NCBI RefSeq assembly: GCF_003544855.1
Contig: NZ_CP032101.1
Span: forward strand, 2,666,001-2,730,000
Reading direction: 5' to 3'
Length of the DNA stretch: 64,000 bases
From: Malaciobacter marinus
GTDB taxonomy: Bacteria > Campylobacterota > Campylobacteria > Campylobacterales > Arcobacteraceae
This document shows, piece after piece, positions 600-15,321 of this stretch; position 1 is the first letter of the stretch; every line of letters begins with the position of its first letter. The notes under the pieces are model-generated. The model worked only from the letters and a program-made list of their open reading frames with translations. It searched no databases and was not told the origin of the DNA. Both the position numbers and the translations under genes were made by a program.

Positions 600-2486
600 T
601 TAATAAATTGGTATTTGTATTGTAAACTTTGCACCTTTATACAGTTCATCTTTATACTCATACTTAGTATTTTCTGCTGTTAATGTACCATGTAAATGCT
701 TAGAAATTATTTCATGACTCATATAAAGACCTATTCCTGTTCCAATACTTTTATCTTTTGTTGAAAAATATGGTTCAAATACTTTTGAAATAAACTTTTT
801 ATTAATTCCACCAGCATTATCGTAAATTTCTATATTAAGATTTTCTTCTATTTTTTTTGCATTTATAAATATATATCTTTCATGCTCATATTTTATAAGT
901 TCATCTCTTGCATTATTTAAAATATTTATCAATACTTGTAAAAATTCGTTTTCTAAAGTTTTAAAATTTATATCTTCAATATCTTGTATTATATAAATAC
1001 TTTTTGTTTTAAACTGTGCTTCTAAAAGTTTAAAAGTTTTATTAAATAACTCTTTTATATTTGAATCTACTTCTGTTTTTGTAGGACTAAAAAAGTTTTT
1101 AAAATCATCAATTGTTTTAGATAGATATTGTGCTGAATCATTTATCTTTGCTGTTGCTTCATAAAACTCTTTATCCGTTAAATTATCTAATTCTTTTTGA
1201 AAACTAATTCCTGTTGCTGCTGTTGAAATAATAGATAAAGGTTGTCTCCATTGATGTGCTATATTAGCAATCATCTCTCCCATACTTGCCATTTTTGATT
1301 GTTGAGCTAAAACATTTTGTTGATTTTCAATCTCTTTTTTATATGATTTAAATTTATCTTCTAAAAGTTTAGATATATATATTGAAATTACTAAAAACAG
1401 TAAAGACAATGCACTTGAAACAATGATTACATTAGTAATATATGAAAAAAACTTCTCATTTAATTCTTCTTCTTTTTTCATTAAACTTTGTTCTATATCA
1501 TCTTGATAAAACCCTGTTCCAATCATCCAATCCCAATTATTCAAACCTTTAACAAAGCTAATTTTTCTAGTTGGTAGATTTGTTTTTGGCTTTTTATATT
1601 GAATATAAGAGTAATATCCCTCACCATTTTGAGCAATAATCTTCATATCTTTGAGTACTCTATGGATATTTTTTCCATCTTCAATATTTAATACATTTTC
1701 TCCTATGTTATCTTTTCTAATATGGCTCAAATAATTAAAATCATAATCAATTATAAATATATATCCAAAATCTGAATATCTTACTAAATTAACATACTCT
1801 AAAACTCTTTTTTTTACTTCTTTCTCAAAATCTTTTATATACTCACCTGTACCAATAACAACATCATAAGGTTCAAAATATTTATAAAAGCTTATTTTTT
1901 TGTATGGTTTTTTATCATTGGGTTTATACCAATAATATGTATCAAATCTTTCACTTTTTTCTTTTATTGTTTTTATTATTGTTTTTACAAACTTATAACC
2001 TTTTGCATCCTCAAAATTTGATAAGTTTTTTCCTTCATACTTCTTATTTAAAGATTGAAGCTTTTTTGTTCCTGTTTTATCATCTATAAAGTAATAACCT
2101 CTTCCATTATTAAAAACCATTGAGCCTAAAGTCTCTTTTATTATTTCAAAGATTTCATCTTTTGATTTTTTATCTTTGTATTTATTGTATAAATTAGTTG
2201 CAACAGCATGAGCTTCATAAACCCTTGATTTTATTGACTCTTTTAAATCTTTTTCTGTAGATCTTTGCATATGCGTAATATAATCATAAATTCTATGTAC
2301 TTCTTCTTGAATTAATTTTTTATTCTTTTTTATATATGTTCTATTTAATATATTTTTTTCTTTTTCATATGTTCTTTTATTTTCTAAGTATAAAAGCAAT
2401 GTAATTACTAATGACAAAACTATTGTCAATAAAGGTAAACTATATCTAATAATTTTTGTTAATATTTTTTCATTTTTATAATTCAC
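600..2486 (-). CDS. Sensor histidine kinase with double Cache sensor
   Basis: Membrane sensor kinase, 628 aa. A helix at about residues 15-34 and a second at about 352-374 bracket a periplasmic region with two Cache repeats, recognisable by GRGYYFIDD (about 128-136) and FGYIFIIDYD (about 240-249), each followed by an IGTG-containing strand (about 211 and 322), as in double Cache_2 sensors of small organic acids. The cytoplasmic half has the H-box IAHQWRQPL (His about 411), N-box ILNNARDEL (about 522), G1 DNAGG (about 556) and G2 GTGIGLYM (about 582). No HAMP domain is evident. The start is GTG with AAAGAG six bases upstream. No response regulator is adjacent, so it is an orphan kinase; its kinase half is a clear paralogue of the divergent gene at 2650-4773. 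The ligand is unknown. Confidence 0.9.
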   Translation of the reverse strand: MNYKNEKILTKIIRYSLPLLTIVLSLVITLLLYLENKRTYEKEKNILNRTYIKKNKKLIQEEVHRIYDYITHMQRSTEKDLKESIKSRVYEAHAVATNLYNKYKDKKSKDEIFEIIKETLGSMVFNNGRGYYFIDDKTGTKKLQSLNKKYEGKNLSNFEDAKGYKFVKTIIKTIKEKSERFDTYYWYKPNDKKPYKKISFYKYFEPYDVVIGTGEYIKDFEKEVKKRVLEYVNLVRYSDFGYIFIIDYDFNYLSHIRKDNIGENVLNIEDGKNIHRVLKDMKIIAQNGEGYYSYIQYKKPKTNLPTRKISFVKGLNNWDWMIGTGFYQDDIEQSLMKKEEELNEKFFSYITNVIIVSSALSLLFLVISIYISKLLEDKFKSYKKEIENQQNVLAQQSKMASMGEMIANIAHQWRQPLSIISTAATGISFQKELDNLTDKEFYEATAKINDSAQYLSKTIDDFKNFFSPTKTEVDSNIKELFNKTFKLLEAQFKTKSIYIIQDIEDINFKTLENEFLQVLINILNNARDELIKYEHERYIFINAKKIEENLNIEIYDNAGGINKKFISKVFEPYFSTKDKSIGTGIGLYMSHEIISKHLHGTLTAENTKYEYKDELYKGAKFTIQIPIY

Positions 2487-2649
2487 ATATAACTCTTTTT
2501 ATTTTATTTTTATTTTATCAAATTTTTACAAATTATCTATTAATTTAAAAAAATACAAACTTCAAATTATAGTTTAATAAAAATATTTTAATTTAATTTA
2601 ACTTTTATTTTTATAAGATGTTAGTAGTTTGGAATATAAAAGGCTAACC

Positions 2650-4773
2650 ATGTTAAAAAACAATTATTTTAAACATGTACTTACTTCAATGGCTGGCATC
2701 TTAATTATTGGTGCTATAATTTCATATTTTTTATATTTATTTTTAATTTCTTATCAAAAAGAAGAAATTTATAAAAAAAATCTACAATTTGCTAATTATG
2801 AGATAAAAGAAAATAAATTAACTATTGAAAAAACTATTCAAAGATATAAAAATACTCTAAGTGCACTAGTTGAGTCTATACAAGAACAAAATCAAAATAA
2901 AGATATAAAATCTTTAAAAAAACAAATGGATATTCTTATAAAAGCAAACCATTCAATTTTTCAAATAAGATACATAAATAGAATAGGTCAAGAGATTATT
3001 AGAATAGATAGAAATATTAATAATAAAATCATTGAACCTAAGAAATTACAAAATAAAAGTAATAGATATTATTTTCAAAAAACAAAAAATTTAAATCATA
3101 ATGAGTTTTATATTTCAAATTTAGACTTAAATATTGAAAATAAGAAAATAGAAAAACCTTTTAGACCAACAATAAGAGTTTCAACTCCTATAATATTGAA
3201 AAAAAGATTTGAAGGTATATTTATTATAAATTTTAATGCACAAGTTTTAATTGATAAAATCACAAAAAGTAAACTTTTCGATATTTATTATATGGATAAA
3301 GAAAAAAGATTTCTCATTCATCCAAATAGTCATAAATCATGGAGTACCCAATTAAGTACTAACTATAAAGTAGAAGATGAAATTAAAAATATTGACTCAT
3401 TGATTAAAAAAAATACACTTGATTTAGAAAATAACTATTATGTAGAAAAAATCAACTTAACAGATCATAATTTTTTTATTATATTATCAATAAAGAAAAA
3501 ATTTTATAATGCATCAATAAAAGAAACAAAAAAAGATATACTATCACTGTTTTTCTTAGTAGCATTAATAGGTTTTCCTTTTACTCTTATAATTGCATAT
3601 ATCCAATCAAGACATGTTATTTTACTTGATTATATAGTAAATTCTATTCCCCATCCATTCTTTATAAAAGATAATAATGGAAAGTTTATAATAGTAAATC
3701 AAGAGATGCTTAACCTTTATAATCTTAAAAGAAAAGAACAACTAATAGGAAAAGATTCATATAATATATTAAATCCTATCTCTTTAAACTCAAAAGACAA
3801 AGATGAACTTGCCTTAGAAAAAGGTAAATTAAAAACCATAGAGAAATTTTATATTGATACTGAAAAAAAGTACTATTTTGAAATGATAAGAGTTAAAATA
3901 CCATTTTACAATATTTTTAAACGAACTTATCTTTTATGTATAGCAATAGATATAACAGAAATTCAAGAATTAAATACTCAATTAAATAAAAAAGTTGAAG
4001 AAGAAGTAAATTCAAGAATTAAAACAGAACAAATTTTAGCGCAGCAATCAAAAATGGCTTTAATGGGAGAAATGATAGGAAATATTGCGCACCAATGGAG
4101 ACAACCATTATCAAATATTACAACAGCCTCAACAGGTATGAAAATTCAAAAAGAGATGCATATCCTAAAAGATGATGAGTTAATTAATGGATTAACTCAA
4201 ATTAATAATTCAGCACAATATTTATCTAAAACAATTGATGATTTTAGAAATTTTTTCAAACCATATAAAGTAAAAACAAATTTTACACTTGAATTTATAA
4301 TAAATAAAGCTTTAAAATTAGTAAGTGCACAATTTACAAATAAAAGTATTCAAATTGTAAAAGAGATAGAAGATACAACAATATTGAACTTGGAAAATGA
4401 ATTTACACAAGTTATTTTGAATATTTTAAATAATGCAAGAGATGAATTATTAAAACTAGAATCTAATGAGAAGTTTATATTTATTAATAGCAAAAAAGAT
4501 AAAGATAGTGTTATTATTCAAATTAAAGATAATGCTGGAGGGATAAGTAAAGAAATTGAAGAAAAGCTTTATGATGCTTATTTTACAACAAAAGATGAAG
4601 ATAAAGGAACGGGTATAGGTCTTTATATGTCTAAACAAATAATTGAAAAACATATGGGAGGTACATTAAGTCATAAAAATGAAACCTTTATATATAAAGA
4701 TAAAGAGTACAAAGGTGCAGTTTTTACAATTAAATTAAATTTAAATGAAGAATTAGAAAATACAAAACAATAA
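2650..4773 (+). CDS. Sensor histidine kinase, Cache-like sensor plus PAS domain
   Basis: Membrane kinase, 707 aa from the ATG at 2650, which has AAAAGG six bases upstream; an in-frame TTG at 2629 is rejected because it lies before this ribosome site. A helix at about residues 12-35 and another at about 298-318 enclose a periplasmic sensor of the long-helix Cache type (IRYINRIGQEIIRIDR at about 107-122). A PAS domain follows (about 327-437; IPHPFFIKDNNGKFIIVNQE), then a short coiled coil, the H-box IAHQWRQPL (His about 481), N-box ILNNARDEL, G1 DNAGG and G2 GTGIGLYM. It diverges from the kinase at 600-2486 and shares near-identical H, N and G boxes with it, including the run NSAQYLSKTIDDF/DSAQYLSKTIDDF. 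No regulator gene is adjacent. Confidence 0.9.
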   Translation: MLKNNYFKHVLTSMAGILIIGAIISYFLYLFLISYQKEEIYKKNLQFANYEIKENKLTIEKTIQRYKNTLSALVESIQEQNQNKDIKSLKKQMDILIKANHSIFQIRYINRIGQEIIRIDRNINNKIIEPKKLQNKSNRYYFQKTKNLNHNEFYISNLDLNIENKKIEKPFRPTIRVSTPIILKKRFEGIFIINFNAQVLIDKITKSKLFDIYYMDKEKRFLIHPNSHKSWSTQLSTNYKVEDEIKNIDSLIKKNTLDLENNYYVEKINLTDHNFFIILSIKKKFYNASIKETKKDILSLFFLVALIGFPFTLIIAYIQSRHVILLDYIVNSIPHPFFIKDNNGKFIIVNQEMLNLYNLKRKEQLIGKDSYNILNPISLNSKDKDELALEKGKLKTIEKFYIDTEKKYYFEMIRVKIPFYNIFKRTYLLCIAIDITEIQELNTQLNKKVEEEVNSRIKTEQILAQQSKMALMGEMIGNIAHQWRQPLSNITTASTGMKIQKEMHILKDDELINGLTQINNSAQYLSKTIDDFRNFFKPYKVKTNFTLEFIINKALKLVSAQFTNKSIQIVKEIEDTTILNLENEFTQVILNILNNARDELLKLESNEKFIFINSKKDKDSVIIQIKDNAGGISKEIEEKLYDAYFTTKDEDKGTGIGLYMSKQIIEKHMGGTLSHKNETFIYKDKEYKGAVFTIKLNLNEELENTKQ

Positions 4774-4804: not shown

Positions 4805-6481
4805 CTACTCTTTATAATTGTCATTACTATTTTTCAATTTTATTGTAAAACAAGCTCCTTTTTTATTATTTCTTACTTTTAAAATTCCATCCATATTTCC
4901 TTCAATTATTTGTTTAGACATATAAAGACCTATACCCGTTCCTTGTTTAGCATGTTTTGTAGTAAAATAAGGTTCAAAAATTCTATCTAAATATTTTTCT
5001 TCTATTCCTCTTCCATTATCTTTTATATGAATCAAAGTATATTTTTTGCCAATAGTTACATCAATATGAATGTATGGGTTTTCAACATTTCTTTGAATTA
5101 ATACATCTTTTGCATTTGATAAAATATTTAAAATTGCTTGAGAAAATTCATTTGGATATCCATAAACTAATATATCTTGTTCACAACTACCTTTATATTT
5201 AATATTATGATGTTTTAATGATGATTGTAAAATACCAATTGCTTTATTGCATGCTTTTGTAATATTGAAGTTTACTTTTGTTTTTGAAGGTTTAAAGAAA
5301 TTTTGGAAATCACTTATGGTATTTGACATATAACTTGTAATCTCATTACACTCAAAAACACTATTTTCAATAAATTTATCATCAAAATCACCAAATTTAT
5401 ATCTTGTTTCAACATTCATTAATATAGCATTTAATTCACTTAAAGGTTGTCTCCACTGATGTGCAATATTTCCTATCATTTCTCCCATTGAAGCAAGCTT
5501 TGATTGTTGGGTCAATAATTTTTCTTGTTGCATTCTTTGGTTAATTTCTTGTTGTATTTTATTTTCTAAATTATCAACCATTTCATTTATTACTCTTTTT
5601 AATAAATTCAATTCTTTTGACTTTGCATTTGCAAAAATTCTTCTATTCAAATTACCTTGTTTTAACTCTTCTAACATTTTTGTTGCAGACTCGATTAATT
5701 CTAAATCTTTATGTAAAGCATCTTTTGCTTCTTCCATCTCTTTATTGATAATTCTAGCCATATCACCTAATTCATCATCACTATCTAAAATAATTCCGAT
5801 ATTATCTTCGCTATTTTTATCTTTTAAGAACTTGAAAAACTTAATATGACCTTTTTTTAATTGTTCTATTGATTTTGCAATTTTTACAATAACAAACCAT
5901 CCCCAAAAAAGAATAAAGATACCTAAAATTAAAGATACCAAAATAATGACAAACCTACTTGTTGTTATATTTTCTTTTGCTTGTTCAAAAGTACGAGATG
6001 ACTTTTGTAACTCTTTTGATTGTTTATTTAAAAGCTTTCTTATTAAAATAAAAAACTGTTTTCTTTCATCATCATTTACATTTATATAAGCTCCCTCTTC
6101 AAAACCTTTTTTTATATATCCTCTTGTAACTTCAAGTCTTTTTTTATAAGAAAACCACTCATTTTTTATTTGCTTATTTTCTAATTTAAATTTTTCATCT
6201 AATTTATTTAATACTTTTTCTAATTTTATATTGATATTATCTCGAATATTATCATTTGGAGCAATTACTAAAGATAAAGATAGTTCTCTTAAATAATACA
6301 TTGGAGCAATTAACTCTTGCTGTATTTTTTGAACTTCAGTTGAATCTTTAAATACATCATTAACACTTTTTAATCCTAACTTACTAATATCAATTGCCAT
6401 AAAAACATTGATAATCAAAGCTATCGTACCAACAATTCCTAAAAAAATGAATTTTGTTCTAATCTTTAGTTGTTTTTTCAT
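4805..6481 (-). CDS. Sensor histidine kinase of the reductase-linked three-component system
   Basis: Membrane kinase, 558 aa, ATG with AAAGG ribosome site. Helices at about residues 10-31 and 176-199 enclose an all-helical periplasmic domain of about 145 residues that looks like a four-helix bundle, not Cache. A HAMP-like linker (about 200-255) and a helical stretch precede the H-box IAHQWRQPL (His about 341), N-box ILNILSNAKDVL, G1 DNGRG and G2 GTGIGLYM. It overlaps the solute-binding protein gene by 23 bp, and that gene overlaps the regulator gene, so regulator, binding protein and kinase are translationally coupled. By analogy with TorS/TorT, a helical-bundle kinase would read the bound or free state of the periplasmic protein; this is inference. 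Family assignment is firm, ligand unknown. Confidence 0.88.
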   Translation of the reverse strand: MKKQLKIRTKFIFLGIVGTIALIINVFMAIDISKLGLKSVNDVFKDSTEVQKIQQELIAPMYYLRELSLSLVIAPNDNIRDNINIKLEKVLNKLDEKFKLENKQIKNEWFSYKKRLEVTRGYIKKGFEEGAYINVNDDERKQFFILIRKLLNKQSKELQKSSRTFEQAKENITTSRFVIILVSLILGIFILFWGWFVIVKIAKSIEQLKKGHIKFFKFLKDKNSEDNIGIILDSDDELGDMARIINKEMEEAKDALHKDLELIESATKMLEELKQGNLNRRIFANAKSKELNLLKRVINEMVDNLENKIQQEINQRMQQEKLLTQQSKLASMGEMIGNIAHQWRQPLSELNAILMNVETRYKFGDFDDKFIENSVFECNEITSYMSNTISDFQNFFKPSKTKVNFNITKACNKAIGILQSSLKHHNIKYKGSCEQDILVYGYPNEFSQAILNILSNAKDVLIQRNVENPYIHIDVTIGKKYTLIHIKDNGRGIEEKYLDRIFEPYFTTKHAKQGTGIGLYMSKQIIEGNMDGILKVRNNKKGACFTIKLKNSNDNYKE

Positions 6482-8126
6482 TTATAACCTTTGGTAAAAT
6501 TGGTAGCATCCTATCTTTACTATATTTAGTTTTTCTTATTGAATGATGAAAAGGTGTAATCTTAGTATTCCACAAAGGCATAATTAATACTTTAGGAGGA
6601 ACATAATCAACTTCTTTATTCACTGCCAAAACTATATTTGGAGAAGGTACAGCTAAGGTATATGCTTTTTCATAAACTCTATGTATTATATTATCAACAA
6701 CATCTAAAAACTCTTCACTGTTAAACTTAACTTCTGAGTATTTATTGATCAACTCTGATAAATATTCATCTTTATCAATTGCTGACCAAATATTGTTTAT
6801 TCTATAATGAAAAAAAACTGTCCAAGGATTATTACTTGACCAAGATTCTGTACCTAAAGTTATCATATCCCATTTTTTAGGATTTTTAATATTTGAAAAA
6901 AGTTGAGAGAATAACTCTTTTTCACTTTTTGTAATTATATAGTTTAATTTTACACCATATTGTAGCAGTTGGAACTCTATTCCTTTCCATAAAAACATAT
7001 ATCTATCCATAGTATAAACATTTAATTCTAAACCATTTAGTATTGATTTTAGATATTTTTTTGTTTCATTTTTTTCATTTATCATCTTTTCATGATGTGT
7101 AAGTAAATCTTTAGTAGCTAAATTAACAGAATAGTAATTTGTGTTTGCAGCAGTAGGAGATTTTTGTCCTTCTCCTTTGTAAACAAATTTCAATAACTTT
7201 TCTTGATCAATTGCTTCATTTAAAGCTATTCTAACTCTTTTATCTTTTAAAGATGTGTCTTTTTTTAGTAAGTTAAATAATATAGATATATTGTGTTTTG
7301 ATTTTGAGGTAACTAGTTTTGAATATGAAGAAAGAATTGTTTCAACTTTTTTATTAAAAGGTATTGGGGAAATATCTAATCCACCCTCTTCTTTTAATGC
7401 CATATTTAATACTTCTTCATTTGATAATTCCGTATATATAGTTATTTTTTCAATATAAGGTTTGTTTTTTTCATAATAATAAGGATTGGCTCTAATTTTA
7501 ATAATAGCAGTTTGCTCTCTTCCTGTAGCATATCCTTCTTCAAGGATGTATGGACCAAGACCATATTTCCCAGGTTCTAAAGTATTTACAGCAGTGTCAA
7601 TATTTCCAATACCCCATCCAAATTTCTTTAAATATACAGAAGAAAAAAAATTAAACCTAGTTAATCTATCTAAAAACAATTCGTAAGGCTTATTTAGAGT
7701 AAATTTTATTTTATTAGATGCTAATTTTTCAATTTTTTCCAATCTACTACGAAGAGGTTTATAAAGCATTGAACCTTTCATAAACTCTTCAAAATTATCA
7801 ATTACTGACTTTGCATCAAATTTTGTACCATCTTGAAACTTCACATCATCTCTTAAAGTAAATATATACTCTAAATCGCCAACTCTTTTTAAATTCGTTG
7901 CTAACATAAACTCCCACCCATTTTCATTATCAGCAGAACGGATTAGTGTTCCATTTATAAGTTTTGACAAATATAAATATGGCATAGTAGGTATAAAAAC
8001 TTTTATATGTGAACCTTTAATTTGTTTTGCTAGAGAGATTTTATGTGCATCATCTTCCCTATACCTTGTATCACTTAATAAAGCTATATTAATAAAAAAT
8101 AGATAAAATAAAATTTTATATATCAT
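6459..8126 (-). CDS. Family 5 solute-binding protein without transporter genes
   Basis: Periplasmic binding protein, 555 aa, with an N-terminal signal peptide (hydrophobic residues about 3-17). The body matches family-5 extracellular binding proteins (oligopeptide/nickel type, SBP_bac_5): FTLRDDVKFQDGTKFDAKSV early in the mature protein, then RVRIALNEAIDQEKLLKFVY, then YRINNIWSAIDKDEYL near the C-terminus. These proteins normally serve ABC importers, but no permease or ATPase gene is nearby. Instead the gene is sandwiched between, and overlaps, a response regulator (11 bp) and a kinase (23 bp). The context indicates a sensing role, comparable to TorT, though TorT belongs to a different binding-protein family. 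The ligand is not predictable. The start has only a weak ribosome site, consistent with coupling to the upstream gene. Confidence 0.85.
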   Translation of the reverse strand: MIYKILFYLFFINIALLSDTRYREDDAHKISLAKQIKGSHIKVFIPTMPYLYLSKLINGTLIRSADNENGWEFMLATNLKRVGDLEYIFTLRDDVKFQDGTKFDAKSVIDNFEEFMKGSMLYKPLRSRLEKIEKLASNKIKFTLNKPYELFLDRLTRFNFFSSVYLKKFGWGIGNIDTAVNTLEPGKYGLGPYILEEGYATGREQTAIIKIRANPYYYEKNKPYIEKITIYTELSNEEVLNMALKEEGGLDISPIPFNKKVETILSSYSKLVTSKSKHNISILFNLLKKDTSLKDKRVRIALNEAIDQEKLLKFVYKGEGQKSPTAANTNYYSVNLATKDLLTHHEKMINEKNETKKYLKSILNGLELNVYTMDRYMFLWKGIEFQLLQYGVKLNYIITKSEKELFSQLFSNIKNPKKWDMITLGTESWSSNNPWTVFFHYRINNIWSAIDKDEYLSELINKYSEVKFNSEEFLDVVDNIIHRVYEKAYTLAVPSPNIVLAVNKEVDYVPPKVLIMPLWNTKITPFHHSIRKTKYSKDRMLPILPKVINEKTTKD

Positions 8127-8832
8127 AATCTAGCCTATATCCAATACCAGAAAGATTTATAATAAGATTTTTAGGTAATTTTTTTCGTAAACTACTAACA
8201 ACTGAACGAATAGCATTGTCAGTCATAACACTATCACCCCACACATTTTCTTGAAGTTCTTCATAATATACAACCCTATGTCTATTTTTATATAAAAGCT
8301 CTAAAAACATATACTCTTTTTTATTTAGTTTTATAGACTCATCTTTATATGTTAATACTTTGTGGTCTAAGTCAAATCTATAGCCATTTAACAAAGAGTA
8401 TATTTCTGAATTCATTTGATGAATTTTATTTACACATAAAGATAAAGCATTTAACAAATCTTTTAGAGTGACTGGTTTTACAATATAATTTTCCAAATGG
8501 AGTTTAACAGCATCAAGAAGATACTTTTTATCTGTATGTGCAGTTATCATAACAACGGGAGTTTTAGAATCAATTTCTCTAATTCTTTTTATCATTTCAA
8601 TACCATTTGTAATAGGCATCATAATATCACAAAGAATTACATCAGGAGATTTTTCTTGATAAGTTTTATAGCCTTCTTGCCCATCTTTTGATACATATAT
8701 ATTTTTTACATAATACTTAAGAGTATCTGCTACTTTCTCTCTAATATATTTTTCATCCTCGACATAAAGAACGGATATTTTTTTTATTTTTTCTAATGCT
8801 ATTGTTTCTATAATCTCTCCTTTTTCAATCAA
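8116..8832 (-). CDS. OmpR-family response regulator (start codon uncertain)
   Basis: Two-domain regulator, up to 238 aa. The receiver has the acidic pair (VEDEKY), phospho-acceptor Asp in LCDIMMP, the switch Thr in MITAHTD and Lys in IVKP; the C-terminal winged helix (about 150-238) ends in IGYRL. It is first in a regulator, binding protein, kinase operon behind the TMAO/DMSO reductase-type gene, so a TorR-like role is plausible. The start is odd: the only canonical start in the frame is TTG at 8832-8830, but it lies just below a perfect TATAAT (8840-8835) and upstream of the strong ribosome site AAAAAGGAGAG (8825-8815). The codons at usable distance after that site are ATT (8814-8812) and ATA (8811-8809). 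True N-terminus unresolved. Confidence 0.87.
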   Translation of the reverse strand: MIEKGEIIETIALEKIKKISVLYVEDEKYIREKVADTLKYYVKNIYVSKDGQEGYKTYQEKSPDVILCDIMMPITNGIEMIKRIREIDSKTPVVMITAHTDKKYLLDAVKLHLENYIVKPVTLKDLLNALSLCVNKIHQMNSEIYSLLNGYRFDLDHKVLTYKDESIKLNKKEYMFLELLYKNRHRVVYYEELQENVWGDSVMTDNAIRSVVSSLRKKLPKNLIINLSGIGYRLDYDI

Positions 8833-8834
8833 CT

Positions 8835-8840
8835 ATTATA
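8835..8840 (-). promoter_or_regulatory. -10 element of the regulator/binding protein/kinase operon
   Basis: Perfect TATAAT on the minus strand, lying after the terminator of the upstream reductase operon and about 10 bases before the AAAAAGGAGAG ribosome site. No good -35 hexamer is visible, as is common for housekeeping promoters of Campylobacterota. Confidence 0.5.
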
Positions 8841-8865
8841 GACTATTGCATCAAAATATTAAATG

Positions 8866-8892
8866 AAAGACTCTAGTTAGACTAGAGTCTTT
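8866..8892 (-). terminator. Terminator after the reductase gene
   Basis: Perfect 12-base arms AAAGACTCTAGT / ACTAGAGTCTTT with a three-base loop (TAG), six bases after the reductase stop codon. On the minus strand the hairpin is followed by TTTCATTTAATATTTT. It separates the reductase genes from the regulatory operon. Confidence 0.75.
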
Positions 8893-8898
8893 TAAATT

Positions 8899-11343
8899 TT
8901 AAATAATCTCTGGTTTTGAAAATACTGTTACTGGAGGGATTTTTCCTGTATATTTTTCAAAAGTAACCAAAGTCGTATGTGCAATATTACCTTGCGCTAA
9001 TCTTGAAGTACCTTTATCTAAAGTTAATACATTTACATCACCATGAACACAAATAGTACCTAAACCTTCTATATACTTTGGATCATACCAAGCACCCTCA
9101 AAAATTAATACTGTTTTTTCTCGAATATCTTTTGTAATTATTGCTCCTGCTAATATTTTACCTCTTTTACTAGAAACTAAAACAATATCACCATCTTTTA
9201 TGCCTTTTTTCTTAGCATCTTTTGGATGAATATAAATAGGTTCTCTACCTTTAATTTCATAAACATTTCTCAATATTGTATTATTAAGTTGAGAATGAAG
9301 TCTAAATTTTGGGTGAGGAGATACTAAATGATAAGGATAATCTTTAGTACTATTTCCTAAATATTCTGCTGGTTCATACCAAGCAGGATGTCCTAAACAA
9401 TCATCATATTTGTATGATGCAATTTTTCTAGAGAATATTTCTATTCTTCCTGAAGGTGTACCTAAAGGGTTTTCTAAAGGATCTTCAATAAAATCTTCCA
9501 TATAATTAAAAGTATCTGCTTGAGATGTTTTTTCTTTAAATTCTACATAACCTTTTTCCCAGAATTCTTCAAATGATGGAAGTTTGATATTTCTTGCTTT
9601 TGCTTGTCTTATAGAACTTTCATAAAAATGTTTTACCCAACCTAATTGATCTCTTCCTTCAGTAAACTCTTTTTCTCTACCAAATTTTTTACAAATATCT
9701 CTAAAAATATCATAATCACTTTTAGATTCTTCAATTGGTTCTATTCCTTTTTTAATTGCAACAATTCCAGCCCCACTTTTACTTCCAATTGCTACAATAT
9801 CATCTCTTTCAATTTCTGTTGTAGCAGGAAGAATTATATCAGCCATTCTAGAACTTGCTGTCCAATATGGGTCTTGATTAATTATTACTTCAGGTTTTTG
9901 CCAAGCTTTTACCATTTTATTTCTATCTTGTTGATGATGCATTGGATTTCCACCTGCCCAATAAACTAATTTGATATCAGCAAATTCAACTTCTTCTCCA
10001 TTAAACTCAATCTTTTTCCCTGGATTTAATAGCATATCTGAAACTTTTGCAACAGGTATAGCTTTAGTAGAAAATGAAGTATTATAAGAACCAGTACCTA
10101 ATGACTTAGCTTTTCCAGCTGTAATACCTGGAACACCTGGTGAGTTATATAAAGTTGCTCCATTATTAGAATATTGATATGATGAACCAAATCCTCCTCC
10201 ATCTTTACCAAGTTGTCCTAACATTGCAGCTAAAGTATAAACAATCCAATGTGTTTGTTCCCCATGATCACCTCTTTGAAGTGCCCAACCAATCATTAAC
10301 ATTGTTCTTCCATTAACCATTGTTTCTGCAAGATTTATTATCTCATCTTCTTTTATACCAGTTATTTTAGATGCCCATTTAGGAGTTTTATCTATATTAT
10401 CTTTTTTCCCTACTATATATTCACTAAACTGATCAAAACCTACAGTATATCTTTTTAGAAAGGTTTTATCATGTAAATTATTTTTATATAAGTAGTTTGC
10501 AATACCAATAAATAAAGCAACATCAGTATTTGGAATAATTTGAATATTTTGTGCATTAAAATATTTTGAAGTATCTGTAATTTGTGGATCGATTGAAATA
10601 ATATTCATTTTTCTTTTTTTAGAAGCTTCTTTAATTTTTTCATATTTTAAATAAGCTTTATGTGCAGGAGCATTCCAATCAATTGCATTTGTATTAACCA
10701 TATCATTACCAATTAAGATAATATTATCAGTATGTTTTGCAACTAAATCTAAAGAAGTATGTCTGTGGTGGTGATTTGTTCCAATAACATAAGGTGCAAT
10801 TACATTAACAGCCCCAGTTGAATATGTTCCTTTTGAATCGACAAAGTTTACTCCACAAGTATTTAGCATTCTTTTAAGAAGTGTTTGAGGGTTATTTAAT
10901 TTCCCAACTCCAAACCAACCATAACTTCCTGCATAAATTGAATCTTTTCCATAATCTTTTTGAACTCGTAATAACTCTTCGTAAACAATTTGATTTGCTT
11001 CTTCCCATGAAACTCTTACAAATCTTTCTTTACCTCTTTTTGTCGTATCACTTTTATGTCTATTTTTTAAAAAACCTTCTCTTATATATGGATACTCAAC
11101 TCTTGTTTGATTATATGTTCTACTTTTTAATGCTTTTTCCATAATTGAAGGTTGTGCGTCTACATCTAAAGGTTTACTATCTGTAATTACACCATTTCTT
11201 ATAGTAACTAAACTAGTTCCCCAATGTGTAGCAGTTACAACTTTTTTACTTTTCTCAAGTAAAGACATGTTTGCTCCCATTAGTGGAGCTGAAAGTCCTA
11301 AAATACCAGTAGTTTTAATAAAATTTCTTCTTGAAGTTTTCAT
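8899..11343 (-). CDS. torA: TMAO/DMSO reductase-type molybdopterin oxidoreductase, Tat-exported
   Basis: Periplasmic molybdoenzyme of the TorA/DorA/BisC branch, 814 aa, using TMAO, DMSO or a related N- or S-oxide as terminal electron acceptor. A Tat signal is present (SRRNFIK at residues 4-10, then a hydrophobic stretch). There is no N-terminal 4Fe-4S Cys motif, as expected for this branch. GSYGWFGVGKLNNPQ (about 139-153) and the GTYSTGA segment with the presumed Mo-ligand Ser at about 175 match the family, as does the C-terminal dinucleotide-binding region (HSQLNNTILRNVYEIKGREP). It starts one base after the cytochrome c gene ends, so the two form one unit, the order known for Cj0265c-Cj0264c in Campylobacter jejuni. 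The substrate is inferred from family; the symbol is by similarity. Confidence 0.88.
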   Translation of the reverse strand: MKTSRRNFIKTTGILGLSAPLMGANMSLLEKSKKVVTATHWGTSLVTIRNGVITDSKPLDVDAQPSIMEKALKSRTYNQTRVEYPYIREGFLKNRHKSDTTKRGKERFVRVSWEEANQIVYEELLRVQKDYGKDSIYAGSYGWFGVGKLNNPQTLLKRMLNTCGVNFVDSKGTYSTGAVNVIAPYVIGTNHHHRHTSLDLVAKHTDNIILIGNDMVNTNAIDWNAPAHKAYLKYEKIKEASKKRKMNIISIDPQITDTSKYFNAQNIQIIPNTDVALFIGIANYLYKNNLHDKTFLKRYTVGFDQFSEYIVGKKDNIDKTPKWASKITGIKEDEIINLAETMVNGRTMLMIGWALQRGDHGEQTHWIVYTLAAMLGQLGKDGGGFGSSYQYSNNGATLYNSPGVPGITAGKAKSLGTGSYNTSFSTKAIPVAKVSDMLLNPGKKIEFNGEEVEFADIKLVYWAGGNPMHHQQDRNKMVKAWQKPEVIINQDPYWTASSRMADIILPATTEIERDDIVAIGSKSGAGIVAIKKGIEPIEESKSDYDIFRDICKKFGREKEFTEGRDQLGWVKHFYESSIRQAKARNIKLPSFEEFWEKGYVEFKEKTSQADTFNYMEDFIEDPLENPLGTPSGRIEIFSRKIASYKYDDCLGHPAWYEPAEYLGNSTKDYPYHLVSPHPKFRLHSQLNNTILRNVYEIKGREPIYIHPKDAKKKGIKDGDIVLVSSKRGKILAGAIITKDIREKTVLIFEGAWYDPKYIEGLGTICVHGDVNVLTLDKGTSRLAQGNIAHTTLVTFEKYTGKIPPVTVFSKPEII

Positions 11344-11344
11344 C

Positions 11345-11902
11345 TTATTTCCCCTTTAATGATTCGTATTGAAGATAAACACTAACAGCTTTTGTTTCTT
11401 TTTTCGAAAAGCCTGCATTAGTTTTCATTGTTTTCATGATTGATGGCCATTGATTTGGTGTGTATTCGTAAGCTTCAAATGTCTTATGGCAAGAACCACA
11501 TCTTTGGTATAATTCTTCCTCTTTATTCCATAGTTCATTTTCATTAGTAACTAATGCTTTTGAGTTTTTTAGTTTAAAATCAATATCAATTTTTTTCCAT
11601 TTTACACCATAAACATCTTCTTTTGTTTCACTAACTTTCATGTTTTTTGTAAACTCATCTTCAAGACGTGCCAATTTAATTCTATCTTTGCTTGAATAAA
11701 AAATAATATATTCATTTCCATCCATTACCCAGCCAGATAAAGTAAAATCACCTTTATTCTCATTAACTTTAGCACCTTTATAAAGTACTCCTACAGGTTC
11801 ATTCTTCATAGAAAGTATTTCTAAATTTTTAGAAGCATACTCCTTTGAAAAAAGCATAGTAGGTATGGCAAATAGTATTAACACAATACCTTTCTTAAAC
11901 AT
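11345..11902 (-). CDS. Monohaem cytochrome c, electron donor to the reductase
   Basis: Exported protein of 185 aa with a signal peptide (residues 1-19) and one haem-binding site CGSCH (about 135-139) in a C-terminal domain; a Met-rich stretch (SIMKTMKT, about 153-160) could supply the distal ligand. The N-terminal domain of about 100 residues has no haem motif and resembles the C-terminal region of TorC-type proteins. A ribosome site AAGGAGTGAGAA precedes the ATG. It is the first gene of a two-gene unit with the molybdoenzyme, one base apart. In C. jejuni the equivalent protein (Cj0265c) is needed for TMAO/DMSO reduction; the same role is inferred here. Confidence 0.82.
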   Translation of the reverse strand: MFKKGIVLILFAIPTMLFSKEYASKNLEILSMKNEPVGVLYKGAKVNENKGDFTLSGWVMDGNEYIIFYSSKDRIKLARLEDEFTKNMKVSETKEDVYGVKWKKIDIDFKLKNSKALVTNENELWNKEEELYQRCGSCHKTFEAYEYTPNQWPSIMKTMKTNAGFSKKETKAVSVYLQYESLKGK

Positions 11903-12121
11903 TTCTCACTCCTTTTTTGTGATAAAAAATGTTAACAAAAAAAGCTAGGATAAAAATTGGAAAACTTGTAAATTTAAATTTTTACTTAAATTTAATATAT
12001 AAAACTGAGAATTATAGTAAAATTTAAAATTATGTAGGATTAGGGAAGATATGTATATAAAATAATAATTTATTTTTTGATTTAATTGTAAAAAGTATTT
12101 TGGGATTTTTATTGAAATTAG

Positions 12122-12197
12122 TGGAGGAGGTAGCCGGACTCGAACCGACGCATACAGGATTTGCAATCCCGGGCATTACCAACTTTGCTATACCTCC
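12122..12197 (-). tRNA. tRNA-Cys (GCA)
   Basis: Cloverleaf on the minus strand: acceptor GGAGGTA pairs with TACCTCC, discriminator T, CCA encoded; anticodon stem CGGGA/TCCTG with loop TTGCAAA gives anticodon GCA; T-arm GGTTCGAGTCC. It lies 33 bp after the end of the EamA gene and may be read from that transcript. Confidence 0.95.
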
Positions 12198-12230
12198 AAA
12201 AAAGTGGAATAGAATTATAGCAAAGATTTC

Positions 12231-13151
12231 TTAATTTTGATTTAAATTTTGGGCTTTATTTGCCTTTCTTTCGTGTCTTACTAAATATATTCCAGCAAAA
12301 ATTACAATCATTGCTCCTAGAACTGTAAACCTATCAGGAATTTCATTAAACATCAGCCATCCTAAAATAGTAGCACTTATTATTTCTAAGTATTGAAATG
12401 ATGCAAGTGTTGAAGCTTTTGCATGAAAAAATGCACTTGAAACAAGAAGTTGTACTATTGTTGTTCCTATACCTAAAATTAGTAAAATCCACCAAATTGA
12501 ACTATCAATTTTATGAAAACTAAAAACTTCAATATTAAAGCTCTCACCAAATAATATTACAATTGATAAGAAAAAAGTAGCTACAACACCTACCCAAAAC
12601 TGTAAACTAATACTATTTCCTAAATTTGAAGCCATTCTAATAGACATTAGATACAAAGCATAACATATAGCAGAAGCAATAGGTAAAAATGAAGCTATCC
12701 CATATAAAGCAAAATTTGGTCTTATAATTATAAAAGTTCCAACTAGACCTATTAATACAGCAATTATATGATTATAAAAGATTTTCTCTTTTAAAAATAT
12801 TACTGATAAAATTGTAAGTACCATTGGTTCAATAAAAAATAAAGCTATATTATTTGCTAAGGGCAAATATCTAAGCCCCCAAAAAAGAAGTATTATAGTT
12901 AGTGAAACAAAAAGCCCTAAGAAAATATAAGAAAGTCTAAATTTTTCAATTTTTTGTTTTATAAAAAGGCTAATTAAAAAAATAAATACTACTTGCATAA
13001 AAAATCTAATCCATGCAATTTGAGTTGGGCTAAGTGATGTTGATAAGTATTTTGCGATTGCATCCGTAAAAGGAAGAAGCAAAACAGCTAATAGCATAAA
13101 TAACATACCTTTATTTACACTTTTTGATTGTTGTAATATATCTGTTTTCAT
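12231..13151 (-). CDS. EamA/DMT superfamily permease
   Basis: Inner-membrane protein of 306 aa with about ten predicted membrane helices arranged as two EamA repeats (about residues 13-143 and 153-292). Motifs typical of the drug/metabolite transporter superfamily are LSPTQIAWIRFFMQ in repeat 1 and ATILGWLMFNEIPD in repeat 2. Family members export amino acids or other small metabolites; the substrate cannot be inferred. The ATG at 13151 has no purine-rich ribosome site but sits seven bases after a perfect TATAAT, suggesting a leaderless transcript. It lies between tRNA genes. Confidence 0.85.
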   Translation of the reverse strand: MKTDILQQSKSVNKGMLFMLLAVLLLPFTDAIAKYLSTSLSPTQIAWIRFFMQVVFIFLISLFIKQKIEKFRLSYIFLGLFVSLTIILLFWGLRYLPLANNIALFFIEPMVLTILSVIFLKEKIFYNHIIAVLIGLVGTFIIIRPNFALYGIASFLPIASAICYALYLMSIRMASNLGNSISLQFWVGVVATFFLSIVILFGESFNIEVFSFHKIDSSIWWILLILGIGTTIVQLLVSSAFFHAKASTLASFQYLEIISATILGWLMFNEIPDRFTVLGAMIVIFAGIYLVRHERKANKAQNLNQN

Positions 13152-13158
13152 GAGGTGT

Positions 13159-13164
13159 ATTATA
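13159..13164 (-). promoter_or_regulatory. -10 element of the EamA gene, likely leaderless
   Basis: Perfect TATAAT on the minus strand, with seven bases (acacctc) between it and the ATG. Transcription would start at or within a base or two of the start codon. Confidence 0.45.
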
Positions 13165-13244
13165 ATTAAAGTAGCTTATTTTAAAATCAAAGTATAAATA
13201 ATATTTTATAAAGTAAAAAAAGGGGAGATCTTAAGTAATAAAAG

Positions 13245-13333
13245 TGGCAGAGAGTGGGGGATTCGAACCCCCGGAGGCGTTAACCTCGCCGGTTTTCAAA
13301 ACCGGTACATTCGACCAACTCTGTCAACTCTCT
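13245..13333 (-). tRNA. tRNA-Ser (TGA)
   Basis: Class II tRNA of 89 bases: acceptor AGAGAGT pairs with ACTCTCT, discriminator G, CCA encoded. Anticodon stem CCGGT/ACCGG with loop TTTGAAA gives anticodon TGA. The long variable arm (CGAGGTTAACGCCTC) and T-loop GGTTCGAATCC fit Ser. It lies 12 bp after tRNA-Leu on the same strand. Confidence 0.95.
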
Positions 13334-13345
13334 ACACTATTATAA

Positions 13346-13432
13346 TGGTGCGAATGGTGAGAATCGAACTCACACTCCGAAACCGGAATGGGATTTTAAG
13401 TCCCACGCGTCTACCTATTCCGCCACACTCGC
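13346..13432 (-). tRNA. tRNA-Leu (TAA)
   Basis: Class II tRNA of 87 bases: acceptor GCGAGTG pairs with CATTCGC, discriminator A, CCA encoded. Anticodon stem GGGA/TCCC with loop CTTAAAA gives anticodon TAA. A variable arm and T-loop GTTCGATTC are present. It is the first gene of a Leu-Ser tRNA unit. Confidence 0.95.
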
Positions 13433-13490
13433 ACATTTTAAACTTAAGTTTTAACATCTTTAAAAGTTGTTATTCTTAAATTGGACTGGA

Positions 13491-13519
13491 ATTATAATAG
13501 AAAATTTTTTATTTGTCAA
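13491..13519 (-). promoter_or_regulatory. Consensus sigma-70 promoter of the tRNA-Leu/tRNA-Ser unit
   Basis: On the minus strand, TTGACA (13519-13514) and TATAAT (13496-13491) are separated by exactly 17 bases, with the tRNA-Leu 5' end about 52 bases further on. Both hexamers are perfect, unusual for Campylobacterota promoters but common upstream of stable RNA genes. Confidence 0.8.
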
Positions 13520-13632
13520 GAGTTTTTTTAAAAAAATTAAAAAATTTCTTTTTTTTTATATTTTATCTAAATAAAACACCAAAATTAGTATAATCTCAAT
13601 TATAATAATTATAGTTACACTAAAGGATAAAT

Positions 13633-15321
13633 ATGAGAAGTGATGAAGTAAAAAAAGGATTTGAGAGAACTCCCCACAGATCACTATTAAGAGCTACAGG
13701 ATTAAAAGATGAAGATTTTGATAAACCATTTATTGGAGTTGCAAACTCATTTATTGAGATAATTCCAGGACATTTCTTTTTAAATAAAGTAGCAGAAATT
13801 ATAAAAAAAGAGATTAGAGCAAATGGCTGCATACCATTTGAATTTAATACAATTGGTGTTGATGATGGTATAGCAATGGGACATGATGGTATGCTATTTT
13901 CACTTCCATCAAGAGAATTAATTGCAAACTCAATTGAAACAGTTATGAATGCACACAAACTTGATGCAATGATTGCAATTCCAAACTGTGATAAGATTGT
14001 ACCAGGTATGATTATGGGTGCATTAAGAGTTGATGTTCCTACTGTATTTGTTTCTGGTGGTCCTATGGCAAAAGGTTACACAAAAGATGGAAACCCTATT
14101 GATTTAGCAACAGCATTTGAAGCAGTTGGTAAATATGAAAAAGGGGATATGAACGAGGAAGAGTTAAAAGATATTGAGTGCAATGCATGTCCAAGTGGTG
14201 GTTCATGTTCAGGTATGTTTACAGCTAACTCTATGAATACACTTATGGAAGCTATGGGTATTGCCTTACCTGGAAATGGAACTATTTTAGCTTTAACACC
14301 TCAAAGAGAAGAGCTGTATAAAAAAGCAGCAAGAAGAATTTGTGAAATAGCAAAAGATAAACAAAAAACAGAAAAATTTAAATTAAAAAATATTTTAAAT
14401 GAAAATGCTGTTAAAAATGCCTTTGCAGTTGATATGGCAATGGGTGGAAGTTCAAATACAGTTTTACACATGCTAGCAATTGCAAAAGAAGCAGATGTTA
14501 ATTTCAATCTTGAAAATATCAATGAAATTTCAAAAAGAGTTTCTCATATTGCAAAAATTTCTCCATCTTTAAGTACTGTTCATATGGAAGATATAAACAA
14601 AGCTGGTGGAGTAAATGCTGTTATGAAAGAGATGAGTAAAAGAGGTGACAATATCTTACTTGATAATCTTACAATCACAGGAGAATCAATACTAGAAAGA
14701 ATCTCTGATGCAGATATTAAAGATACAAATATCATTCACACAATTGATAACCCTTATAGCAAAGTTGGTGGACTTGCAATTTTATATGGTAACCTTGCAA
14801 AAGAAGGAGCTGTTATTAAAACTGCTGGAATTACAGGAGATAGAGCATTAACAGGAAAGGCTGTATGTTTTGATGGACAACCTGAAGCTATAAAAGGTAT
14901 TGTTGAGGGGAAAGTAAAAGCTGGAGATGTTGTTGTTATTAGATATGAAGGGCCAAAAGGTGGTCCAGGTATGCAAGAGATGCTTGCCCCTACTTCATTA
15001 ATAATGGGAATGGGACTTGGAGATAAAGTTGCACTTATTACTGATGGTAGATTTAGTGGTGCTACAAGAGGTGCTTCAATTGGTCACGTAAGTCCAGAAG
15101 CTGCTGAGGGTGGCATGATTGGATTATTAAAAGATGGTGATGAAATTCATATTGATGTTGATAAATATATCTTAGAAGTAAACTTATCAGATGAAGAGAT
15201 AGCAAAAAGAAAAGCTGAGTTTACTCCACTTAAAAAACCTCTTAACTCAAGATGGTTAGGACAATATAGAAGTTTAGTTACAAACGCAAGTTCTGGAGCA
15301 ATTTTAAAATCTGACTTATAA
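13633..15321 (+). CDS. ilvD: Dihydroxy-acid dehydratase
   Basis: Iron-sulfur enzyme, 562 aa (usual family length), converting 2,3-dihydroxy-3-methylbutanoate or -pentanoate to the 2-oxo acids in valine and isoleucine synthesis. Cluster ligands are seen in AIPNCDKI (Cys about 119) and [11 protein letters not shown] (Cys about 186 and 192); the family signature [18 protein letters not shown] lies near residue 480. ATG with AAAGGA upstream; -10-like TATAAT at 13589-13594. It is monocistronic: a strong hairpin follows the stop codon. Confidence 0.97.

Follow-up and report, generated by a model that had tools for sequence, protein, structure and literature searches.

We have examined three overlapping genes in a stretch of Malaciobacter marinus DNA (contig NZ_CP032101.1, positions 2,666,001 to 2,730,000; 64,000 nucleotides, hereafter the window, to which all positions refer), which encode an OmpR/PhoB-type response regulator (RR), a periplasmic solute-binding protein (SBP) of the SBP_bac_5 family, also called family 5, and a histidine kinase (HK). 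The trio lies beside a gene for a reductase resembling those that act on S- and N-oxides. Most likely these proteins form an SBP-based three-component system that controls the adjacent S/N-oxide reductase, in which the SBP would dock on the tip of the kinase sensor and play no part in import, and the OmpR-type regulator would act at 11-bp direct repeats.

Organization of the locus

The source genome is closed (2.917 Mb), and the five genes concerned are as follows:

11345-11902, minus strand: cytochrome c, first gene of the reductase operon (TIGR02162, 63.1 bits over torC 244-379; DHC, 0.0016)
8899-11343, minus strand: S/N-oxide reductase of the TorA/BisC/DMSO-reductase group, with a twin-arginine (Tat)-type signal, SRRNFIK (bisC_fam, 1003 bits; TorA, 897 bits; Pfam, Molybdopterin family)
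8116-8832 as called, minus strand: OmpR/PhoB-type RR (Response_reg, 4.9e-26; Trans_reg_C, 9.9e-16)
6459-8126, minus strand: SBP_bac_5 periplasmic protein with an N-terminal signal segment, the proposed ligand receptor (PF00496, 2.5e-35)
4805-6481, minus strand: HK with transmembrane (TM) segment 12-30, periplasmic four-helix sensor at about 31-176, TM segment 177-195, HAMP, H-box and HATPase_c

The RR and SBP genes overlap by 11 bp and the SBP and HK genes by 23 bp, and neither the open reading frame (ORF) list nor a Pfam scan reveals an ATP-binding cassette (ABC) permease or ATPase in the cluster. A preliminary description, made from the sequence alone, had reported five minus-strand genes with this layout, these overlaps and no transporter genes; the ORF list, Pfam and NCBIfam bear out every one of these points. 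The SBP is a formal SBP_bac_5 member by its Pfam score (122.7 bits against a gathering threshold of 32.4) and by its family-5 fold. The reductase falls just below the curated NCBIfam cut-offs (bisC_fam, 1003.3 against 1017.6 bits; TorA, 897 against 909 bits) and, judging from these scores, is related to the TorA/BisC group, the assignment not being formal; related enzymes of loci L034 and L037 exceed the bisC_fam cut-off. Family support for the cytochrome c is weak, only the C-terminus of TorC being aligned by Pfam and NCBIfam.

Conservation of the trio and its linkage to molybdoenzymes

Conservation was assessed in 100 genomes, the source genome included, of which 20 carry the SBP and 30 the reductase. 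The SBP is found in 19 of the 30 reductase-positive genomes compared to one of the 70 others (Fisher p = 7e-12), and in that single genome (G023) a reductase fragment at a contig end adjoins the SBP. All 24 SBP loci of the relatives preserve the order RR-SBP-HK, with overlapping genes in nearly all, and a molybdoenzyme gene adjoins every one of them. This enzyme is of the TorA/BisC type in 22 cases (one cut by a contig end) and DmsA-like in two (L035 and L044), where it is accompanied by a DmsB-like iron-sulfur subunit. Whether the trio tracks the reductase, a check proposed in the preliminary description, is therefore answered in the affirmative, and the trio is seen beside a second enzyme type as well. 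Moreover, the pairwise distances of SBP, kinase sensor, RR and reductase are correlated at 0.90-0.96 over 21 loci. The source genome itself holds a second, paralogous set (L005) consisting of a TorA-like reductase, cytochrome, RR, SBP and kinase, which, together with the constant gene order and the constant molybdoenzyme neighbor, argues that the arrangement is not due to chance. Five TorA-like reductases are encoded in this genome, and the three without this trio adjoin other kinases, two with dCache sensors (L176 and L177) and one, of 725 residues, with an unrecognized sensor (L175), so that at least three sensor architectures serve the five paralogous reductases.

The kinase sensor and a candidate docking site for the SBP

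An AlphaFold2 model of the SBP (mean predicted local-distance difference test, pLDDT, 92.2) matches family-5 structures with Z scores of 28-33, the best being AapF (Z 33) and Helicobacter pylori DppA (Z 31.8). The kinase sensor is modeled as a four-helix bundle (pLDDT 89.3), the structural matches of which include the sensor of TorS in complex with TorT (Z 15.1, ranked second) and LytS in complex with XylFII (Z 13.0), although matches among helical bundles are common, so that a Z of 15 shows little, and ligand-binding chemoreceptors score similarly. No Foldseek match of the sensor model reached E 0.001 (NarQ, 0.027), TorS being seen only with a second structure aligner, and searching PDB sequences with the sensor profile returned nothing significant. 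Two elements of the sensor are of interest as contacts for the SBP:

6071-6109, minus strand: loop containing FEEGAYINV, kinase residues 125-137, between sensor helices 3 and 4, the proposed SBP docking site
6254-6262, minus strand: turn A-P-N, kinase residues 74-76, between sensor helices 1 and 2

Both are predicted to lie at the membrane-distal tip because of the helix lengths in the sensor model. All of 56 SBP-paired kinases have F127, E129, P75 and N76, and 54 of them have G130. A search with the sensor profile also identified five kinases of this family that stand beside reductases without an adjacent SBP gene (in G004, G005 and G009, at a second G095 locus, and in G111). Residues 127-131 of these SBP-less kinases read QNEDA, DNKDA, DRLAN, YKKGA and FEEEA, so that the loop is altered in all five, whereas R65, N76, W109, Y112 and Q154 are retained throughout. 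Of the conserved cells, 12 of 20 are changed in the loop and 17 of 105 in the remainder of the sensor (p = 1e-4, in a test devised after four of the five cases had been seen), and p is 0.0025 when one of two sister genomes is left out; the 56 paired kinases have a mean of 0.05 loop changes out of 4. Decay of the loop while the rest of the sensor is kept suggests that constraint on a docking surface was lost once the SBP had gone, perhaps marking the tip loop as the place at which the SBP docks. If so, the SBP-less kinases point to F127, E129, G130 and P75 as candidate docking residues that could be mutated to study the contact between an SBP and a four-helix receptor.

Direct repeats upstream of the reductase operons

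PhoB/OmpR regulators use an 11-bp period, and tandem direct repeats of this length, which fit a regulator of this type by virtue of their period, are present upstream of reductase operons (for example TTCGATTTTTT twice, or CCCACTTTTTT twice). The lag-11 repeat score averages 13.5 for the regions upstream of reductase operons, compared to 7.0 for 100 upstream regions taken as controls (p = 7.6e-7); none of the other lags within 6-20 approaches it. SBP-less operons and a DmsA-type operon have such repeats in front of them as well. The window has a candidate RR binding site of this kind upstream of the cytochrome gene:

11939-11960, minus strand: weak 11-bp direct repeat, CCAATTTTTAT/CCTAGCTTTTT

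The SBP/sensor pair in other phyla

A scan of genome contigs identified 71 loci of this SBP subfamily in Campylobacterota, Gammaproteobacteria, Planctomycetota, Verrucomicrobiota, SAR324 and other groups. In about 69 of them the next gene encodes a membrane receptor, be it a kinase, a hybrid kinase or a chemotaxis protein, and most of these receptors carry a 4HB_MCP-type sensor that can be aligned to the window kinase sensor, P75, W109 and Y112 being invariant. Domain scans of ten receptors or receptor-containing proteins from outside the reductase-linked sets showed a methyl-accepting chemotaxis protein (MCP) signaling domain in five and kinase domains in five. Outside Campylobacterota no reductase of the types considered here was detected within about 9 kb of the SBP loci, and within Campylobacterales one locus (L104) has the SBP and a hybrid kinase but no reductase. 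Since the sensors are homologous while the receptors are MCPs or kinases, these alignments indicate that SBP and sensor are a unit with varying output, a module wider than the reductase.

In Grimontia/Enterovibrio (L086, L087, L088 and L119) the SBP gene precedes that of a chemotaxis receptor, and the L086 sensor is a dCache rather than a four-helix domain. A 1512-residue ORF of a metagenome-assembled Verrucomicrobiales genome (L096:4145-8683) joins the SBP to a 4HB-HAMP-kinase-receiver-Hpt protein. We have not used it as a natural fusion; both receptor TM helices are kept and the fused kinase would sit on the wrong side of the membrane, and a sequencing or assembly error, or a lost stop codon, is therefore the likely origin.

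A wider proposal, which we put forward tentatively and regard as rather doubtful in its full extent, is that these SBPs form a signaling-only SBP_bac_5 subfamily with a cognate four-helix sensor contacted at its tip loop. The pair would be interchangeable among OmpR-coupled kinases, hybrid kinases and chemotaxis receptors across phyla, would sense an oxidized sulfur or nitrogen compound (for example methionine sulfoxide, or peptides containing it) and, in Campylobacterota, would control a periplasmic S/N-oxide reductase. Because the pair is coupled to unrelated outputs in other phyla, identification of a single ligand could annotate many receptors.

Alternative explanations

Several observations weigh against control of the reductase by a dedicated SBP, kinase and regulator. 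The SBP is evidently not indispensable for keeping the kinase, given that five kinases are retained beside reductases with no SBP gene next to them. Two of the genomes concerned (G095 and G111) still carry an SBP elsewhere. The G111 kinase, which was found after the others, is a weaker case of loop decay, having one of the four loop changes (G130E) together with P75K. In addition, two of the 71 SBP loci (L084 and L095) have no receptor next door, the repeat in the window is degenerate (score 7.1), and an orphan OppB-like gene is located about 90 kb away (L180:4831-5805). The common nature of helical-bundle matches and the order in which the loop test was devised, both mentioned above, belong here too.

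The orphan OppB-like gene bears on the idea that the SBP is an ordinary importer component with its permease encoded elsewhere, the kinase sensing directly and the adjacency reflecting co-regulation. The predicted ligands of SBP_bac_5 proteins are for the most part di-, tri- and oligopeptides to be transported (PMC9602780), and the five SBP-less kinases that still stand beside reductases also speak for this idea. The source genome has four SBP_bac_5 genes, namely those of the window SBP, its L005 paralogue, the L006 protein and the SBP of the sole complete Opp operon (L007), which encodes OppB, OppC and two ATPases in addition to its own SBP. No OppC, ATPase or SBP gene adjoins the orphan OppB-like gene, however, and OppB/OppC-like permease genes occur near an SBP homologue at one locus only (L095), about 5 kb off and on the opposite strand. 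The constant partner of the SBP is instead a receptor, either kinase or chemotaxis protein, and absence of the SBP goes with decay of the sensor tip. We therefore consider an importer role improbable and propose that the SBP is dedicated to signaling and feeds no ABC importer, a conclusion drawn from gene content and neighborhoods. The preliminary description had named a matching ABC permease elsewhere as evidence that would speak against its view; the only complete Opp importer of the genome has its own SBP. Its assignment of the family-5 SBP as a dedicated receptor component of a reductase-linked kinase gains support from this fact, from the co-occurrence of trio and reductase, and from the molybdoenzyme neighbors at all 24 loci.

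The trio might also be a genuine SBP-kinase-regulator system, the main target of which is not this reductase, so that the adjacency is historical and the signal is, for example, a general nutrient or chemoattractant. Outside Campylobacterota, where no reductase was detected in the neighborhood, the pair drives chemotaxis receptors and hybrid kinases, and the L104 hybrid kinase and the weakness of the window's own repeat can be read in the same way. Nevertheless, this second possibility also seems unlikely to us because every trio in the relatives adjoins a molybdoenzyme, which may be either of two enzyme types, and the direct repeats are enriched upstream of reductase operons. A role of the SBP as periplasmic accessory to the reductase, delivering substrate or cofactor, with the two-component system being independent of it, is very improbable: although the SBP is encoded beside periplasmic oxide reductases in Campylobacterota and another SBP_bac_5 protein (L006:8094-9605) adjoins a different molybdoenzyme and a putative chaperone, the SBP also accompanies chemotaxis receptors with no reductase nearby, its gene in Campylobacterota lies between those of regulator and kinase and usually overlaps both, and reductases persist without it. 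The L006 cluster (8094-14030) comprises the SBP_bac_5 gene and those of an Fe4S4-type molybdoenzyme, an iron-sulfur subunit, a membrane subunit and the putative chaperone, and neither permease nor kinase is seen in its neighborhood.

Proposed mechanism and ligand

Our preferred model of reductase control by the trio has sequence evidence behind it, namely the gene organization, the recurrence of the trio in relatives, its molybdoenzyme neighbors, the sensor domain common to the receptors, and the repeats; the docking site, the direction of the signal and activation of the reductase are what we infer. The exported SBP would bind a small periplasmic ligand and, in its loaded (or perhaps its empty) form, dock on the distal tip of the four-helix sensor of the kinase through the FEEGA loop and the APN turn. 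Docking would alter kinase activity through the TM helices and HAMP, the kinase would phosphorylate the OmpR-type regulator, and the phosphorylated regulator would bind the 11-bp direct repeats in front of the cytochrome-reductase operon, thereby switching the operon on.

The reductase shares 41% identity with Escherichia coli TorA and has, in its GSYGW motif, a Tyr residue where E. coli TorA has a gap. This Tyr is typical of dimethyl sulfoxide (DMSO) and biotin sulfoxide reductases, and an S-oxide is as plausible a ligand as trimethylamine N-oxide (TMAO). Campylobacter concisus BisA, a related enzyme, respires several S- and N-oxides and reduces both free and protein-bound methionine sulfoxide (PMC10653797). 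The ligand most likely comes from the class of reductase substrates (S- or N-oxides), for instance DMSO, TMAO or methionine sulfoxide, the last either free or within a peptide. Methionine sulfoxide, on its own or as part of a peptide, is an attractive guess, and a speculative one, because a peptide-type SBP is paired with an S-oxide reductase; the SBP pocket is too divergent from those of DppA and NikA for ligand inference.

Two elements separate the reductase gene from the regulator gene, as a result of which the RR-SBP-HK trio probably has its own promoter:

8866-8892, minus strand: terminator-like 12-bp perfect hairpin between reductase and regulator, also present in the nearest relative, L054
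8835-8862, minus strand: promoter-like TTAATA-16-TATAAT for the trio, a consensus match only, the -10 box of which is conserved in L054

The TTG start of the RR ORF (8832) lies just after the -10 box and upstream of the RR's own Shine-Dalgarno sequence, and the L054 RR offers no ATG, GTG or TTG near its Shine-Dalgarno sequence past an in-frame stop codon, only ATT or ATA (L054:3630-3690). For these reasons the true RR start is probably non-canonical, either ATT at 8814 or ATA at 8811.

Further out, a tRNA-Cys (GCA) gene (12122-12197, minus strand) lies directly upstream of the reductase operon. Directly adjoining the trio on its other side are two more, divergent histidine kinase genes, at 600-2486 (minus strand; dCache_2) and 2629-4773 (plus strand; HK_sensor_dom_bact and PAS), between which no regulator gene was found.

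Comparison with known systems

A literature search returned no description of this trio. As far as the literature searched shows, the association of a family-5 protein with oxide reductases, a signaling-only subfamily, and its pairing with one sensor type across different outputs are new, and the control of oxide respiration in Campylobacterota is little described. Sensing of respiratory substrates with the aid of a binding protein is already known for TMAO (TorT) and arsenic (the AioX group), and our model, if true, would add a further, independently recruited binding-protein family.

In E. coli chemotaxis, the family-5 binding proteins DppA and NikA dock on the four-helix periplasmic domains of the receptors Tap and Tar, respectively, and also feed ABC importers. 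The window pair likewise combines a family-5 protein with a four-helix receptor, but no importer is encoded beside its SBP. The CuaD-CuaS-CuaR and XylFII-LytS systems resemble our model in having a dedicated signaling SBP that docks on a helical sensor, and differ in that their SBPs are family-1-type sugar binders of Firmicutes and that CuaDSR controls a sugar importer (PMC10384115). The bare two-component CuaSR still perceives its signal (PMC10384115), and the SBP-less kinases described here may do likewise. The proposed control of a membrane histidine kinase by a family-5 SBP has its counterpart in CBP-ChiS of Vibrio (PMC7564644), and the CBP structure 1zty is matched by our SBP profile (E = 9.4e-17); CBP, however, has chitin oligosaccharides as its ligands and acts on chitin genes rather than on an oxide reductase (PMC7564644).

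The AioX/ArxX/ArrX-S-R systems are also binding protein-kinase-regulator modules placed with a DMSO-reductase-family molybdoenzyme, the substrate of which they sense, and ArrXSR occurs in Epsilonproteobacteria (PMC5908839). Their binding proteins are PhnD-like instead of family 5, and the substrates are arsenic oxyanions (PMC5908839). A parallel in layout is offered by TorT-TorS-TorR of E. coli TMAO respiration, where a binding protein, a kinase and an OmpR-type regulator stand beside a TorA-type reductase and a TorC-like cytochrome, and where the TorS sensor superposes on our sensor model. TorT is nevertheless of another binding-protein family, to which the SBP has no significant similarity; TorT is absent from the family matches listed for the SBP and BLASTP of torT against it gives E 6.9, in agreement with the preliminary description, and elsewhere in the source genome there is only a sub-threshold TorT match (28.8 bits against a cut-off of 310). 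That description had also called the kinase TorS-like, which holds for the sensor fold (Z 15.1), as it does for other four-helix sensors, but not for family membership, the TorS family TIGR02956 being matched at 53.6 bits against a cut-off of 676.5 and over the kinase core only. Moreover, TorS is a hybrid kinase, whereas the window kinase has neither a receiver nor an Hpt domain. On these tests binding protein and kinase both fall outside the Tor families, and the best reading of the analogy is that the trio would work like TorT-TorS-TorR and the AioX/ArrX systems with a binding protein and a kinase of other families.

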